Of a stretch of 26,678 nucleotides of DNA, positions 3,695 through 22,079 are shown one piece after another. Location: IMG/VR virus record IMGVR_UViG_3300042563_002132, positions 1-26,678 of that record; one strand, written 5' to 3'. The notes beneath the pieces were generated by a model that saw only the letters and a list, made by a program, of their open reading frames with translations, was not told the DNA's origin and searched no databases. Source of the DNA: a virus. Both the position numbers and the translations under genes were made by a program. Numbering within the stretch: the stretch's first letter is position 1; each line of letters opens with the position of its first letter.

Positions 3695-4564
3695 ATGAAA
3701 GATACAAAGAATATAGAAGAAATGTTGAATCAGGTTATCAACGGGGATTGTGTGGAAGTTATGTCAAATCTTCCTGAGAACTCAATTGATTTAGTGGTTA
3801 CGAGTCCTCCATATTCGGTAAACATTAGTTATGATGTTTATGATGACAATACAACAATTGACGAATATTTAAACTTCACCAAAAAATGGTTGGAAGGTGC
3901 GTTTAGATTATTAAAAGATGATGGTAGAATATGTGTTAATGTTCCGTTTGAAATAAACCTAAAAGATAGAGGTGGTAGAATTTTTATTGTTTCGGAGATT
4001 TGGAATATAATGAAAGAAGTTGGTTATAAATGGTTTGGACTTATTGATTTGGAGGAAGATAGTCCTCATCGTAGTAAAACAACCGCTTGGGGGTCTTGGA
4101 TGAGTTGTAGTCAACCATATATTTATAACCCAAAAGAATGTCTTATCCTCGCATATAAACATAGCCCTAAAAAGTTAACTAAGGGAGAACCTCAATGGAA
4201 AGGAGTTCCAACTGAAATTGAACAGGAGGATGGAACATTAAAGAAAAAAGTTGTATATGAAGAAACAGATAAGAAGGACTTTATGGAGCTTGTTTTTGGT
4301 CAGTGGAATTACTTTGCAGATACTAAATCACTCACCAAAGCCACTTTTTCCATGGACATTCCGACCAAAGCAATCAAAATATTGTCCTACAAAAACGATG
4401 TAGTATTAGATCCATTTGCGGGATCAGGAACAACATTGGTCGCTGCTGAGATATTAGGACGTAGATGGTTAGGTATTGAGTTGAGTGAAAACTACAAACA
4501 AATCGCTGAGGTAAGGATTAATCATTTCAAGTCGTTAAATCAAATAAAAGAACTCCCACTATAA
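3695..4564 (+). CDS. orphan beta-class DNA methyltransferase, probably N4-cytosine
   Basis: A 289-residue site-specific DNA methyltransferase of the D12/N6-N4 type. Catalytic motif IV is TSPPY at residues 36-40, and the S-adenosylmethionine-binding motif I is DPFAGSGTT at 239-247. The order IV before I defines the beta class. The S-P-P-Y form of motif IV is most often linked to N4-methylcytosine, though adenine specificity is not excluded. The intervening 60-230 region should contain the target-recognition part. No restriction endonuclease is adjacent, so its likely job is to protect phage DNA from host restriction or to mark it. A hairpin overlaps the stop codon. Confidence 0.92.
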   Translation: MKDTKNIEEMLNQVINGDCVEVMSNLPENSIDLVVTSPPYSVNISYDVYDDNTTIDEYLNFTKKWLEGAFRLLKDDGRICVNVPFEINLKDRGGRIFIVSEIWNIMKEVGYKWFGLIDLEEDSPHRSKTTAWGSWMSCSQPYIYNPKECLILAYKHSPKKLTKGEPQWKGVPTEIEQEDGTLKKKVVYEETDKKDFMELVFGQWNYFADTKSLTKATFSMDIPTKAIKILSYKNDVVLDPFAGSGTTLVAAEILGRRWLGIELSENYKQIAEVRINHFKSLNQIKELPL

Positions 4565-12127: not shown

Positions 12128-13261
12128 ATGGAAAATCAAAATAGTGTTGCGTATGTTGGTTTGATCGGTGAGGTCAAAGCAATTGAAGGGGCTGATAATA
12201 TTGAACAAGTTGTTGTTGGTGGTTGGAACTCCATTGCACAAAAAGGTGTTTATAATGTTGGGGATAAGGTTGTTGTTGCAACAACCGATGCGGTTATACC
12301 ACAAGCGTTATCTGATTTAATGGAGGTAACTAACTATCTTCGTAAAGGTCAGAGAGTTAGAACCGTTAAGTTGCGAGGAGTGTACTCTGAGTGTTTATTG
12401 ATCCCATTTAAGTTCTTAGCCCCAAAAGCATTAGAGAACAATGTCAGTGAAGGTCACGATATGATGAACATACTTGGCATTACTAAATATGAACCACCAG
12501 TTAAGACCATTCAACTAAGTGTCGGTGGACGTAAAGTAAAATACCACCAAAACCCTAATTTCAAAGTTTACTACAAGTTCCCTAACCAAAAGAATGTACC
12601 GGATATGTTCAATGAAGAAGATGAGGTTGTTATAACTCGTAAGTTACACGGAACAAATGCCAGATATGGAATAGTTAGAAAGAAAAAACTATCATTGTGG
12701 GATCGTGTTAAAATGTTATTTGGTAATAAATGGGTTTCCTTTGATTTCATTTATGGGTCTCACAACGTAGAGAAGGGTTCTGATAGTCAAGGATTCTACG
12801 ATACTGATGTATGGATGAATGTTGCCAAAAAATACGACATACGTCAAAAATTGTGGGATCACGTAAAAGACACTTACGAACCATTTGGGTTGACTGAAGG
12901 TGTTGTTATATATGGTGAGATATACGGAGCGGGGATACAGAAAAACTACGAGTACGGTTTAACTGATGTTAAATTTGTTGGTTTTGATGTTCAAGTTGAT
13001 GGAGTATACCAACCATACCTTGAAGAAACCGTTCATTTTGATTGTTTACAATTACCACAAGTTGAGTTACTTTATCAAGGTAATTGGAATAAAGAGGAAC
13101 AAGATAAATATGTGTTCAACAACAATATAGAAGGAACTAAAGTTCCTCACGAAGGTATTGTTGTTAAATCTGTGACAGGTGATCGTAGAAAAGTGAGTAA
13201 AGTTATTAACCCAGATTACTTGATTGCGAGTGAAAAACATAATTATGGTGATTCCCATTAA
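12128..13261 (+). CDS. RNA ligase with N-terminal OB-like domain
   Basis: A 377-residue ATP-dependent RNA ligase. The nucleotidyltransferase core has motif I K172-L-H-G (TRKLHGTNARYG), motif III YGEIYG at 262-267, IIIa FVGFDV at 283-288, motif IV EGIVVK at 342-347, and a basic motif V region (KVSKVI at 355-360). Residues 1-115 form a separate domain (YVGLIGEVKAIEGADNIEQ, then VGDKVVVATTDAVIP), like the OB domain preceding the catalytic core in the Deinococcus RNA ligase (Rnl5) group. It joins 3'-OH and 5'-phosphate RNA ends, probably to repair host-cleaved tRNA or other RNA. A kinase and a cyclic-phosphate receiver elsewhere in the window fit that role. Confidence 0.93.
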   Translation: MENQNSVAYVGLIGEVKAIEGADNIEQVVVGGWNSIAQKGVYNVGDKVVVATTDAVIPQALSDLMEVTNYLRKGQRVRTVKLRGVYSECLLIPFKFLAPKALENNVSEGHDMMNILGITKYEPPVKTIQLSVGGRKVKYHQNPNFKVYYKFPNQKNVPDMFNEEDEVVITRKLHGTNARYGIVRKKKLSLWDRVKMLFGNKWVSFDFIYGSHNVEKGSDSQGFYDTDVWMNVAKKYDIRQKLWDHVKDTYEPFGLTEGVVIYGEIYGAGIQKNYEYGLTDVKFVGFDVQVDGVYQPYLEETVHFDCLQLPQVELLYQGNWNKEEQDKYVFNNNIEGTKVPHEGIVVKSVTGDRRKVSKVINPDYLIASEKHNYGDSH

Positions 13262-16823: not shown

Positions 16824-17042
16824 ATGTTTAAAGTAGAAAAGTTAGGAACGTGGGGAGTCATAACACTAACAGTAATTTATCTAACCCTTATTAGTGTATT
16901 TTTTGAATATGTTATTAATAGAGAAGTAAATTATTTAATTCAAATTGTGTCGTTGTTTATAGCTTTGGGCTACACAATTTTTACGATAAAGTTAATAGTT
17001 AATTTAGTGTATAATTTTATAAAAAAAGAACAAAATGATTAG
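16824..17042 (+). CDS. two-span membrane protein, 72 aa
   Basis: A 72-residue protein with two hydrophobic helices: about residues 9-29 (WGVITLTVIYLTLISVFF) and 39-63 (IQIVSLFIALGYTIF, then TIKLIVNLVY). The tail FIKKEQND is charged. The SPFH gene starts inside its last codons (ATGATTAG overlap), so translation of the two is coupled. It could be a partner of the SPFH protein in the membrane; that is inferred only from the coupling. Confidence 0.75.
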   Translation: MFKVEKLGTWGVITLTVIYLTLISVFFEYVINREVNYLIQIVSLFIALGYTIFTIKLIVNLVYNFIKKEQND

Positions 17043-17985
17043 TACTTTAATTTTTTTAGCAAGTTTAATAGCGGCAAGTCTTATCGCATTAAAAACAAGA
17101 GACAAGATGTATATAGTAGGGAAAGATAGATGGAATGACCCTAAAAACATTTTCCAACCTTCGTGGTTAATTAAACCAATTGTGGTTTTAATTGTCGGGA
17201 TTTTAATTTCTGCGATCCAACCATTCTCAGTTGAAAAGATTGATTCTGGACACAAAGGGTTAAAAATTAACTTAGTGGGTAATCAACGTGGTGTATCAAG
17301 TTATCAGTATAAGACAGGTTGGGTGGTTTATAACACTTGGACAGAACAAGTATTGGAGTTTCCAACATACCAACAACATATTGAATACGAAGATCAGGGT
17401 GTAATTCTTAAAGGAGGATTCTCAGCAACCATTAAACCAACATTCAACTATTCATTACGTGAAGATGCGATTGGGGATATGTTTGTTAACTTACGTAGAG
17501 ATATAAAAGAAGTAGAACAAGGTTGGCTAAAGAATGCTATCATTGGAGCTGTTAATGACGTTGCAAATACTTGGGAGGTAGATAGTATTTTTAATCACCG
17601 ACAATCGTTTGAATCTGCTATCGTACTTGAATGTAATCTACGTCTATCAAAGTGGTTTAATGTTTCACAACTACGAACTAATATTGTACCACCTGACGCA
17701 TTACAGGAATCAATTATAGCAAAAACTAAAGCAATCCAACAAGCGGAAGCGTCCGAACAACAGGCGATCGCGGCGTTCTCTGAAGGTAGACGAAAAGTTG
17801 CTGTGGCAAGAGCTGACTCTGCCGAAACTGTAATTAACGCAAACGCTTCGGCACTTGCAATTAAGATCAAACAGACACAACTAACACCTATGTATATTGA
17901 ATACTTGAAAGCACAAGCTTGGGATGGGGTTTTACCTACAACAATTGCAGGTGGTTCAGGGACATTCTTAAACATTAAACAATAA
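17035..17985 (+). CDS. SPFH/band 7 (prohibitin-like) membrane protein
   Basis: A 316-residue protein with two N-terminal hydrophobic segments (about 3-20 and 46-64). It then has the SPFH-type block: FSVEKIDSGHKGLKINLVG, TWTEQVLEFPTYQQHIEYED, GVILKGGFSATIKPTFNY, and a long helical region with IVPPDALQESIIAKTKAIQQ followed by an Ala/Glu-rich coil (about 235-285). This is the expected order for stomatin/prohibitin proteins, which form membrane-anchored ring assemblies. Phage-encoded SPFH proteins are known but their role is unclear; protecting or remodelling the host membrane and inhibiting host proteases are possibilities. Base composition here is higher in C and G than in neighbours. Confidence 0.9.
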   Translation: MISTLIFLASLIAASLIALKTRDKMYIVGKDRWNDPKNIFQPSWLIKPIVVLIVGILISAIQPFSVEKIDSGHKGLKINLVGNQRGVSSYQYKTGWVVYNTWTEQVLEFPTYQQHIEYEDQGVILKGGFSATIKPTFNYSLREDAIGDMFVNLRRDIKEVEQGWLKNAIIGAVNDVANTWEVDSIFNHRQSFESAIVLECNLRLSKWFNVSQLRTNIVPPDALQESIIAKTKAIQQAEASEQQAIAAFSEGRRKVAVARADSAETVINANASALAIKIKQTQLTPMYIEYLKAQAWDGVLPTTIAGGSGTFLNIKQ

Positions 17986-19297: not shown

Positions 19298-19317
19298 TTA
19301 AATAATTTGTATATTTG
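19287..19317 (+). promoter_or_regulatory. complete Bacteroidota-type promoter, leaderless
   Basis: TTTG (19287-19290, inside the end of the preceding gene), 19 bases, TATATTTG (19310-19317). ATG 19322 is four bases downstream. Confidence 0.75.
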
Positions 19318-19321
19318 TGAT

Positions 19322-19558
19322 ATGATGGAAAATAGAAGTAAGCACTACGGAGACGTGGAGAAATGGGTGATAAAGGTAATTGATTCTTGTGAGACATACG
19401 AACAAACTATTACGGTGTCAATATTGATTCGGAATTTTGAAAAACAAATGAGACGTAATGATGAATATTCCAAGTTAGCTTGGTCAATGCAGCATTCTTT
19501 AGTCATTATGTTGAATTTAAAGAGAAACGAAATTATGAATAGAAACGAAATTGTGTAA
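19322..19558 (+). CDS. hypothetical protein, 78 aa
   Basis: Started at ATG 19322 (MMENRSKHYGDVEKWVIKV), since upstream in-frame codons form the promoter; ATG 19325 is equally possible. It is basic and helical, with DVEKWVIKVIDSCETYEQT then a long helix containing RNFEKQMRRNDEYSK. It sits immediately before the repeat-array gene, nine bases apart, and very likely shares its transcript, so it is a candidate partner. Family not recognised. Confidence 0.75.
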   Translation: MMENRSKHYGDVEKWVIKVIDSCETYEQTITVSILIRNFEKQMRRNDEYSKLAWSMQHSLVIMLNLKRNEIMNRNEIV

Positions 19559-19567
19559 ATTTTTAGT

Positions 19568-21040
19568 ATGGATTATAAAGAATTAAAAAGAAAAGAGACA
19601 TTATTTGAAATCATTGATGATGTTATTTGTGGTATGGATGTCTATAATTATAATGGATCTTTATGGGTAATTAATACTGATAAATCAAGATGGGCGATTG
19701 AATTTAATAAAAATAAAACATTGTGGTTTAACTTTGGTTTATTTAAAACTTTATTTAAGTCAATGTCATTGGAGGTAATGGATAATCAAGAGTATGTGAC
19801 TGAATGGTTTGAGTCAAGATATCTTAAACCTGAGGTGGTTGAAGATACCATTCAAAATGGGGTTAAGTATACCCAGGGCAAAATGGTTTGGTTACCATTC
19901 AAGGTTGAAGATACCATTCAAAATGGGGTTAAGTATACCTTTGCGCATGAATTATGTTTTTCGGTCGAAGTTGAAGATACCATTCAAAATGGGGTTAAGT
20001 ATACCGGACCCGAAGGACTTAAGAAGTCTCTTGAAGTTGAAGATACCATTCAAAATGGGGTTAAGTATACCCTATCATTGCTTTCTAGTGCGAATGTTCT
20101 AGTCAAAGATACCATTCAAAATAGGGTGAAAGAAACTGGATTACACAAAGGAGTTAGACCGTTGTCCGTTGAAGATACCATTCAAAATGGGGTTAAGTAT
20201 ACCTCAGAACTTAATGATTTACAACTAACTGAAGTTAAAGATACCATTCAAAATGGGGTGAGACACACCAGCTTTCATTCTTTTGATTTCTTCATCAGAG
20301 TTGAAGCTACCATTCAAAATGGGGTGAAAAACACCGTAAACTGTACGTCCCCTCTTGATCAATTGGTTGAAGATACCATTCAAAATGGGGTAAAGCACAC
20401 CCATAGAAAAAAATACAAAGATTTACATACGGTTGAAGACACCATTCAAAATGGGGTGAAGCACACCCAAAGGTTGGGTAATAACAGAGTGGTTGATGAC
20501 ATTATCCAAAATGGGGTGAAAAATACTGATCCACGTCGAGACTTCATTTATGCGACAGTTGAATATACTGATCAAAATGGGGTGAATCATCCCAGAAAAA
20601 AAGTTATCTCTTTGGGAGGAGAAACCGTTGAAGAAATCATAAAAGATGGGGTAAAGGAAACTGAATTACATAAAGGGGTTAGACCTTCTTCGGTTGAAGA
20701 TGTCATTCAAAATGGGGTGAAAGAGACTATTGGTACACTACGACGTACTTCTGAGTGGGGAGTTGATGACATTATTCAAAATGGGGTGAAGAACACCTAC
20801 TCAGATAAAGTTCCTAATGAATATGATTGGAGTGACGAGTTTACAAAAGAAGTTGAAGATACCATTCAAAATGGGGTAAAACATACCTTCCCATTAATTA
20901 TAGAAAAATCGGATGCAGTTAGAGATATTATTCAAGAGGGTATGAAAGTTAAGGATACTTTTAAAGGTAATTTTAAACAAGCATTTATGGTAAATGAGGT
21001 TATAAATGATGGTGTTAAAGATATCAAACCAAAAATTTAA
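19568..21040 (+). CDS. repeat-array protein: N-terminal domain plus 18 VEDTIQNGVKYT units with variable linkers
   Basis: A 490-residue protein. Residues 1-90 are a normal-looking domain (ETLFEIIDDVICGMDVYNY, then WVINTDKSRWAIEF and LWFNFGLFKTLFKSM). From residue 91 to 486 it is an array of 12-residue units, consensus V(E/D)DTIQNGV(K/R)xT, separated by variable segments, usually 10 residues. The encoding DNA is a 36-base repeat with 30-base spacers, all in frame and without stops. Units 1-4 and 6 are identical in DNA; units 17-18 are degenerate. Many units carry Asp and Lys at fixed places, so the unit may form a short amphipathic helix or turn presenting the variable peptide. No family recognised; possible roles are multivalent binding or release of many peptides. 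Confidence 0.88.
   Translation: MDYKELKRKETLFEIIDDVICGMDVYNYNGSLWVINTDKSRWAIEFNKNKTLWFNFGLFKTLFKSMSLEVMDNQEYVTEWFESRYLKPEVVEDTIQNGVKYTQGKMVWLPFKVEDTIQNGVKYTFAHELCFSVEVEDTIQNGVKYTGPEGLKKSLEVEDTIQNGVKYTLSLLSSANVLVKDTIQNRVKETGLHKGVRPLSVEDTIQNGVKYTSELNDLQLTEVKDTIQNGVRHTSFHSFDFFIRVEATIQNGVKNTVNCTSPLDQLVEDTIQNGVKHTHRKKYKDLHTVEDTIQNGVKHTQRLGNNRVVDDIIQNGVKNTDPRRDFIYATVEYTDQNGVNHPRKKVISLGGETVEEIIKDGVKETELHKGVRPSSVEDVIQNGVKETIGTLRRTSEWGVDDIIQNGVKNTYSDKVPNEYDWSDEFTKEVEDTIQNGVKHTFPLIIEKSDAVRDIIQEGMKVKDTFKGNFKQAFMVNEVINDGVKDIKPKI
19838..21025 (+). repeat. translated CRISPR-like array: 18 x 36-base repeats, 17 spacers
   Basis: Repeat starts (36 bases each): 19838, 19904, 19970, 20036, 20102, 20168, 20234, 20300, 20366, 20432, 20492, 20558, 20627, 20693, 20762, 20852, 20918, 20990. 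The repeat starts GTTGAAGATACC, has the core CATTCAAAATGGGGT and ends AAGTATACC. Spacer lengths in order: nine of 30, then 24, 30, 33, 30, 33, 54, 30, 36. Repeats 1-4 and 6 are identical; repeat 5 and those from 7 on differ increasingly. CCATT (positions 11-15) can pair with AATGG (19-23) in the repeat RNA. No cas gene or leader is present. Confidence 0.93.
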
Positions 21041-21048
21041 GTAATCCG

Positions 21049-21351
21049 ATGGAAATAGATAAACTATACCAATTATGTAAATATATTTATGATTCTTCTG
21101 TAATAAGTTATAATGGAAAGAATAATCCCGCTAAACATATTCAAAATATTAAGGAAATGGTCAGGACTTATATTAGAACTGAGGTTACCCCTTGTGAGTT
21201 GACAGATGATGAAAAATTAATTTACATTGTTGAGAATGAAGGTAAAATGTTAACTAATAATCTAAATGGTCATCGGTGTAATGATTCAGATGAATTTCAG
21301 GAAACAAGAAATAAAATAAAAATATATCGGAAAGAGTTGGGTTTATTATAA
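21049..21351 (+). CDS. hypothetical protein, 100 aa
   Basis: A 100-residue frame starting eight bases after the array gene (MEIDKLYQLCKYIYDSSVI). It is helical and polar, with TPCELTDDEKLIYIVENEG and a HRCNDSDEFQETRNKI segment. No membrane or signal segment. It is likely co-transcribed with the array gene and could work with it, but nothing in its sequence shows this. Family not recognised. The next promoter overlaps its last codons. Confidence 0.7.
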   Translation: MEIDKLYQLCKYIYDSSVISYNGKNNPAKHIQNIKEMVRTYIRTEVTPCELTDDEKLIYIVENEGKMLTNNLNGHRCNDSDEFQETRNKIKIYRKELGLL

Positions 21352-21373: not shown

Positions 21374-21667
21374 ATGAAAAAATTATTATTTATCCCATTA
21401 CTTTTAGTGGGTATTACATCTTGTAGTGATGATCCTGAAACTGTACCACAAACAATAACTGAGTCGGTACCGAACAATCAATATAAAGAATTTGAATATA
21501 GTGATATGGATGTGTACCACATTCAAGAAATAGATGGATGTGAGTATATTTTAGTTAATGGTCGGGAAAATTCAGAACCGGCATTAACACACAAAGGGAA
21601 TTGTAAATATTGTTTGGAACGAAACAAACAAAGTGTAATTGAAGTTAACAAAAAAGAAGAATATTAA
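21374..21667 (+). CDS. predicted surface lipoprotein, 97 aa
   Basis: Signal peptide MKKLLFIPLLLVGITSC with Cys17 as the lipidation site (ITSC). Residues after it, SDDPET, match the acidic lipoprotein export signal described for Bacteroidota surface lipoproteins (Ser-Asp-Asp in Flavobacterium), so it may be exposed outside the outer membrane. The C-terminal half has HIQEIDGCEYILVNGREN and HKGNCKYC, a Cys/His-rich block that recurs in phage proteins. A role in superinfection exclusion is plausible but not shown. The gene end overlaps nothing; the receiver-domain gene starts one base after its stop. Confidence 0.82.
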   Translation: MKKLLFIPLLLVGITSCSDDPETVPQTITESVPNNQYKEFEYSDMDVYHIQEIDGCEYILVNGRENSEPALTHKGNCKYCLERNKQSVIEVNKKEEY

Positions 21668-21668
21668 A

Positions 21669-22079
21669 ATGGATAAAGTAAAAGTATATTTAGATGATGT
21701 TCGCACACCAGTTGATAAAGATTGGGTGGTAGTTCGTTCTTATGATGAGTTCGTACAAAAGATCAACACAATTGGTTTAGAGAATATTGAACTGATTTCT
21801 TTGGATCACGACTTAGGTGATAGTGCAATGACCGAGTGGTTATATGGTGTAACAAAAAACTATACAATCAATTACGATAATATCACTGAAAAAACAGGAA
21901 TGGATTGTACAAAATGGTTGGTGAATCAATGGTTAGATGGTAAACCTATTGTTGAGGTTGTTGTTCATTCGGCAAACGCTGTGGGTAGTGGTAATATGAT
22001 GGGATACATCAACAACTACCGACACTTAAATAGAATGGAACAAAATTGTGTAAGAGTTAAAATTGAACATACAGTATAA
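21669..22079 (+). CDS. cyclic-phosphate-processing receiver-like domain protein
   Basis: A 136-residue protein started at ATG 21669, one base after the previous stop (the longer frame from 21639 overlaps the upstream gene). It has a receiver-like pattern: KVYLDDVRTP with D9-D10 and R12, SYDEF, LISLDHDLGDS at 43-52 and TGMDC at 76-80, then VVVHSANAVG at 97-106. This fits the cREC family (cyclic-phosphate processing receiver domain), proposed to act on RNA or nucleotide 2',3'-cyclic phosphates rather than in phosphorelay. It thus complements the RNA ligase, kinase relic and phosphoesterase. Family call fairly confident; activity inferred. Confidence 0.82.
   Translation: MDKVKVYLDDVRTPVDKDWVVVRSYDEFVQKINTIGLENIELISLDHDLGDSAMTEWLYGVTKNYTINYDNITEKTGMDCTKWLVNQWLDGKPIVEVVVHSANAVGSGNMMGYINNYRHLNRMEQNCVRVKIEHTV

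Follow-up and report, generated by a model that had tools for sequence, protein, structure and literature searches.

A phage gene with a CRISPR-like array in an open reading frame and several spacers that match host chromosomal DNA

The viral DNA analysed here (IMG/VR record IMGVR_UViG_3300042563_002132, 26,678 nucleotides, referred to as the window) carries repeats and spacers spaced like those of a CRISPR array, inside a gene. The locus raises the question of whether such an array can serve as a protein, and of where its spacers come from. A preliminary description had claimed an in-frame array of 18 repeats and 17 spacers, 12 of them of 30 nt, and this was confirmed from the open frame and a unit profile, which placed 18 units and 17 spacers between 19838 and 21025. 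The spacers measure, in order, 30, 30, 30, 30, 30, 30, 30, 30, 30, 24, 30, 33, 30, 33, 54, 30 and 36 nt; 12/17 are exactly 30 nt and every length is divisible by three. As to extent, the units and the 490 codons had been described correctly, but the gene starts ahead of the array, at 19568 (19568-21040, + strand, 490 codons and a stop), and its first ~90 residues form a separate folded domain. The coding frame runs through the array without a stop, whereas the two remaining forward frames contain 20 and 55 stops and the reverse frames 14-34, and a stop-free outcome was obtained in 0 of 20,000 shuffles of the window's spacer DNA.

The N-terminal domain (19568-19837, +) is followed by units 1-4 (19838-20101, +), the freshest part of the array, in which identical 36-nt repeats (GTTGAAGATACCATTCAAAATGGGGTTAAGTATACC) alternate with unique 30-nt spacers; the GC content of these first four spacers is 0.41, against 0.30 for the window. 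Units 5-10 (20102-20467, +) include the cassettes GLHKGVRPLS and SELNDLQLTE, both of which have relatives in other phages. The older units (20468-20917, +), with spacers of variable length, hold the recurrent cassettes ELHKGVRPSS, IGTLRRTSEWG and YSDKVPNEYDWSDEFTKE, which are also present in divergent arrays. Two decayed units, VRDIIQEGMKVK and VNEVINDGVKDI, terminate the array (20918-21025, +) with unit scores of 11 and 18 vs 44 in fresh units, and units 12, 17 and 18 are highly degenerate. The 36-nt repeat, in the window (19838-19873) and in homologues, holds a degenerate 12-nt direct repeat (GTTGAAGAYACC / GTGAAACACACC), and the first unit in several phages consists of VxxT and a 10-residue spacer alone, as if the 12-nt direct repeats had recombined.

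This layout is no assembly artefact of the one contig, as homologous arrays were obtained from 124 IMG/VR loci. IMG/VR DNA was searched with a back-translated EDTIQNGVKYT pattern and with a second pattern ending in E/D/N/K-T, which matched 86 and 103 stretches respectively, and a script detected 143 arrays (98 unique) in the 124 loci; the VEDTIQNGVKxT-type unit, which the preliminary description had proposed to look for in relatives, is therefore widespread. More than 140 IMG/VR contigs carry both the N-domain and an array, and an identical 633-aa array is present in about 20 separate contigs. The N-domain signature was found in 88/98 unique arrays; in the other 10 no signature could be detected, some of these arrays at least being truncated where the fetched DNA ends. 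A DNA pattern for the N-domain alone matched 113 IMG/VR stretches with the same kind of units after the domain, some fully decayed, and apart from these decayed arrays it uncovered no further repeat type. In the N-domain proteins of loci L273 and L280 the units are almost wholly decayed, and acquisition in these arrays may have stopped. The array was not found in 84,980 bacterial and archaeal genomes searched with the same kind of back-translated pattern, was not found by protein or by DNA among INPHARED phages, and had no match in Rfam. The carrier contigs reach up to 308 kb and the largest arrays have ~26 units inside ORFs, while L010, L016, L047, L050, L059, L061 and L062 each bear two array genes in tandem with unrelated cassettes. 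The carrier phages probably infect Flavobacterium and relatives; a segment of the window (21682-22001) is 73% identical in DNA to Flavobacterium phages immuto 3-5A and 13-6C, which supports a Flavobacterium-type host.

Whether the frame is used could be assessed across this family. All but two of the 1434 repeats detected at DNA level in the 124 loci are in the open frame (1432/1434). Homologous spacers from different phages (360 pairs) gave a pN/pS of 0.40 in frame, compared with 1.24 and 1.06 for the two remaining forward frames. A value of 0.54 in one reverse frame is what shared codon positions would produce, and the contrast was smaller with one pair per family (0.62 vs 0.88 and 1.07). 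Judged by the open frame and by this selection, the array is translated and kept in frame, as the preliminary description had proposed for a genuinely translated CRISPR-like array, and the older spacers are under purifying selection as peptides. For fresh spacers, the frame test fell between random sequence and in-frame coding. Some cassettes, among them ELHKGVRPLA and EDGDWLDGDER, reappear across N-domains <75% identical, mostly in the C-terminal half of the array.

The N-domain, residues 1 to about 87, was modelled by AlphaFold2 with high confidence (pLDDT about 87-96 over residues 1-80) as a helix, four strands and two helices, and W33, I35, W42, E45, L52, W53, N55, F59 and W80 are conserved in 47 relatives. 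It belongs to no known family, and Pfam, PHROGs and PDB returned no convincing match to either the domain or the repeats. In a full-length model every 12-residue repeat, VEDTIQ-NG-VKxT, forms, with moderate confidence, a beta-hairpin with an NG turn (pLDDT about 70), so modelled spacers would be loops of a repeat scaffold; in a shorter model the repeats were disordered. A small gene upstream (19307-19558, +) and another downstream (21049-21351, +), neither with a PHROG, belong to ORF clusters that lie near arrays in 40 loci (24 distinct arrays) and 51 loci (27 distinct arrays) respectively, and among the ORF clusters around the loci no acquisition gene was recognised adjoining the arrays. Elsewhere the window encodes an N6/N4 DNA methylase (3695-4564), an RNA ligase (12128-13261), a Band_7/SPFH protein (17035-17985) and a cREC_REC (cyclic-phosphate processing receiver) domain (21639-22079).

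The likeness to CRISPR was measured against 27 real VI-B array loci recovered from Bacteroidota genomes, of which 21 distinct repeats were compared. Reverse-complemented, the phage repeat matched these at a mean of 22.0/36 in exact register, whereas random phage 36-mers matched at 13.2 +/- 1.8 and only 0.03% of them reached the value of the phage repeat. The likeness is located in the 5' 22 bases (15.6/22), the last 14 being near chance (6.5/14), and when these 22 nt were compared with Flavobacterium II-C repeats, none of 2000 shuffles matched as well. II-C and VI-B repeats have one end in common (PMC8092290), and it is evidently this half, common to both kinds of host repeat, that the phage repeat resembles at the sequence level. 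The type VI-B geometry claimed in the preliminary description is likewise supported, real VI-B spacers being 30 nt in 129/153 cases and II-C spacers mostly 30 nt. A second repeat type, VERILQKEVKDT, found in one phage, has 27/36 DNA identity to the first, keeps the 36/30 geometry and has a similar VI-B likeness. In the real VI-B loci L135, L136, L138 and L142, copies with the direct-repeat 3' half alone behind an unrelated 5' half were seen amid full repeats.

The terminal inverted repeat is incomplete in the phage repeat. At the level of RNA the resemblance is poor: the window repeat lacks the hairpin of a CRISPR repeat, its folding z-score being +0.4 vs -3.7 for a real VI-B repeat. The suggestion in the preliminary description of a dual-use element whose RNA mimics a CRISPR array is weakened accordingly. 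It is also very improbable that the transcript or its antisense is a CRISPR decoy, sponge or guide whose translation is incidental: while the VI-B geometry, the partial repeat similarity and the host sequence in the spacers (see below) would suit such a device, the repeat fold, the purifying selection on the peptides and the strict frame do not, and the mixed orientation of the spacers offers no consistent antisense targeting.

The repeats and spacers were then compared along the arrays. In the first three repeats of arrays from 30 relatives with N-domains <75% identical, Thr is encoded by ACC in 74/78 cases and Val by GTT in 74/75, whereas at conserved Thr positions of the N-domain the usage is divided 13/8/5/3 among codons in those 30 relatives. 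The repeat DNA is therefore conserved beyond the need of the peptide, whereas the codons of the N-domain drift. Close to the N-domain the repeats are about 0.92 identical to the consensus, but at the array end 0.70; in the same direction spacer GC3 declines from 0.33 to 0.23, and spacers of exactly 30 nt make up 96% of first spacers but 61-83% of those further along. Taken together, these three trends indicate that the cassettes proximal to the N-domain are young on average. Under the published rule (Hoikkala et al., PMC8092290), the repeat orientation would make this fresh end the leader-distal side, which counts against a CRISPR mode of acquisition. Strict growth at the leader end was expected, but pairwise comparison gave only a weak bias: between close relatives, private cassettes were weakly biased towards the N-domain (0.46 vs 0.56 for shared cassettes, first and last quintile), and perfect, fresh units were also found inside arrays. 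We thus claim an ageing gradient, and not a strict polarity.

Close relatives keep shared cassettes in the same order in 1004/1015 cassette pairs, yet differ by whole cassettes. The comparison of spacers between relatives, advised in the preliminary description, thus revealed differences of whole cassettes and not a slow joint divergence of spacer and repeat. In addition, 91 cassettes are common to arrays with divergent N-domains, the array at L107 combines perfect repeats with unshared spacers, and one cassette, DYFEYTNNTL, is tandemly duplicated (twice in L062). The cassettes are therefore gained, lost and exchanged between phages as units.

The source of new spacers was sought by searching about 260 spacers against host genomes, and most had no match. 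The genome search scores two candidates per genome, which makes the protospacer count a lower bound; the genomes searched are stand-ins for the true hosts, and host gene names are a reading of the translated host sequence. Among 66 young spacers, KHHVGLNRFV matched 29/30 bases of Flavobacterium pepP (Xaa-Pro aminopeptidase) in antisense, with weaker matches to pepP in many other genomes. Among 91 other spacers, RYAVPRRWNA matched rpoB at 28/30 on the sense strand in a different frame in five genomes, KACGRLPSCS matched a DUF4159 gene at 28/30 in antisense, and TALATSFTSA gave a probable match to pyruvate kinase, also antisense, with 24 identical bases (27/30). A search of 395 Bacteroidia genomes added TELEDLSIKY, which matched spoT/relA at 27/30 in the sense direction and in frame in four genomes, and two further spacers of the same phage with probable antisense matches at 27/30, in one genome each, to a Glu/Leu-type dehydrogenase and a YyaL-type gene. 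The total is at least seven host matches, four strong (pepP, rpoB, spoT/relA and DUF4159), which span the entire spacer and occur in several genomes, and three probable, with 3/7 of the matches confined to single genomes. Reversed spacers gave no match in 199 genomes at E <= 0.001, and arithmetic from the per-genome E-values predicts ~0.1 chance spacers at the level of the best four.

Further spacer sets gave no match at E <= 5e-4 in 399 Flavobacterium genomes. Spacer sources were also sought in about 1 Mb of DNA flanking the arrays, which yielded nothing but array fragments, and among INPHARED phages, where there were just weak matches (E 0.6). In the converse search, host VI-B and II-C spacers had no match to the array phages above a reversed control, which was run for II-C. 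As the strand and frame of the host matches vary, the spacers were captured as DNA, and the peptides they encode are mostly not host peptides. The spacer-against-host DNA search proposed in the preliminary description thus led to host chromosomal genes at 27-29/30, and we take the spacers to be captured host chromosomal DNA, from either strand and in any frame, a feature which that description had not foreseen.

These matches bear directly on two other explanations. An ordinary tandem-repeat protein, expanding by slippage and diverging by point mutation, could account for the duplicated DYFEYTNNTL cassette of L062, but new spacers are unlike their neighbours and match host genes at whole-spacer register, and the repeats are constant at silent sites. 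This explanation is contradicted, since its survival would require all host matches to have arisen by chance, and we regard it as scarcely credible. The other supposes that a CRISPR array was captured in antisense long ago and turned coding, that capture has ended and that the present variety reflects cassette reshuffling at the repeats. The sharing of 91 cassettes between arrays with divergent N-domains, the conserved cassette order and the VI-B resemblance of the repeat would all fit such a fossil. However, fresh spacers match living host genes at 27-29/30, their host-like GC ameliorates with array position, and perfect-repeat arrays with unshared spacers (L107) point to ongoing capture, which together make an extinct origin improbable.

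How, then, could host DNA enter the gene? The reading that we favour, at about an even chance, is of a phage protein gene that would diversify by uptake of host DNA via host Cas1-Cas2 and be selected as a multivalent loop scaffold. More specifically, and tentatively, at somewhat less than an even chance, phages may hijack host spacer acquisition, which would write 30-bp pieces of the chromosome into a coding gene, with selection screening the resulting peptide loops against the host. A 66-bp cassette would comprise the fixed 36-bp repeat (12 aa) and a 30-bp spacer copied from the host chromosome. For the adaptation step we infer that host Cas1-Cas2, or a different enzyme that measures out the same length, would use the phage repeat as substrate, insert a 30-bp host fragment and duplicate the repeat; as 66 bp is divisible by three, the frame would survive the insertion. 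Insertions that bear a stop or break the frame would be purged with the loss of the phages that carry them. The protein would thereby become a multivalent scaffold showing loops of random sequence, and loops that happened to bind a host factor or to block it, for instance a protein of host defence, would be kept, their cassettes drifting towards the C-terminus and spreading between phages. As to function, we favour a scaffold of changing loops that would inhibit host factors.

Searches for Cas1 found none in the window and none in 29 phage records, which reach 308 kb, and on the favoured reading it would therefore be supplied by the host. In F. columnare, spacers are reported to enter VI-B repeats in trans via the II-C Cas1, and a substantial part of the VI-B spacers in that species is host chromosome (Hoikkala et al. 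2021, PMC8092290). The seven protospacers, in genomes that are stand-ins for the hosts, have no shared PAM, including that of the F. columnare type (TAAA/TTTA). A competing account retains the peptide array fed by host DNA but attributes the cassettes to a phage enzyme or to replication and recombination, for example through template switching or the end-joining of degraded host DNA between repeats. Infected cells are rich in host chromosome fragments, and phage records without cas1, the lack of a PAM, the internal fresh units and the weak polarity would all sit well with such a route. Neither the exact 30-nt spacer and 36-nt repeat in two repeat types nor the likeness to host CRISPR repeats would be expected from illegitimate recombination, however, and no acquisition gene was recognised beside the arrays. 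We therefore consider this route unlikely, although a serious competitor to capture by host Cas1-Cas2.

Compared with known systems, the phage arrays share with the type VI-B (Cas13b) and II-C arrays of Bacteroidota a 36-nt repeat, 30-nt spacers, the common repeat half GTTG-N7/8-C-N-TTCAAAAT, and spacers that are short DNA captures, in F. columnare including those from the host chromosome (PMC8092290). They differ in being translated in frame, with peptide-selected spacers and no crRNA hairpin, and in having no cas1 on the tested phage records and no PAM seen, although many real VI-B loci are also without cas1. Racrs, solitary repeat units (PMC10651486), similarly imitate CRISPR repeats on phages, but are small, non-coding single repeats, whereas the phage arrays are long, coding and furnished with spacers; the Racr survey masked predicted ORFs, and none was reported for type VI (PMC10651486). 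Diversity-generating retroelements likewise place hypervariable residues within a fixed scaffold at a dedicated phage locus. They mutate adenines from a template repeat, however, whereas here whole 10-residue segments would come from host DNA, each bringing a repeat copy, and the spacers vary at every position, with matches to host genes. The tandem-repeat proteins of Borg elements have units divisible by three that expand within coding genes, but these repeats are near-identical and without foreign spacers, unlike the phage array.

If the favoured reading is right, this CRISPR-like capture feeding a protein would represent a route of making protein that to our knowledge is known in no other system, in which a fragment of fixed length is captured in any frame and from either strand, immediately translated, and retained when it proves useful. 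It would tie CRISPR adaptation to protein evolution, provide a natural record of host DNA captured during infection, and allow the birth of new peptides to be watched directly in populations of phages. The protein would further be a natural scaffold for the display of exchangeable loops of 10 residues, and the spacers could help to identify the hosts of uncultured phages.

A different arrangement of the same parts was observed in the 190-kb phage record behind L107, where the loci L192, L193 and L194 encode tandem N-domains together with VERILQKEVKDT units. These units are parted by LNE/INE-SEE stretches that resemble T4-type prohead protease sites, and the modules are fused to other C-terminal domains, one of them nucleotidyltransferase-like as judged by eye. 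From these sequence features, the L192-L194 modules may be taken up into the virion and then injected.
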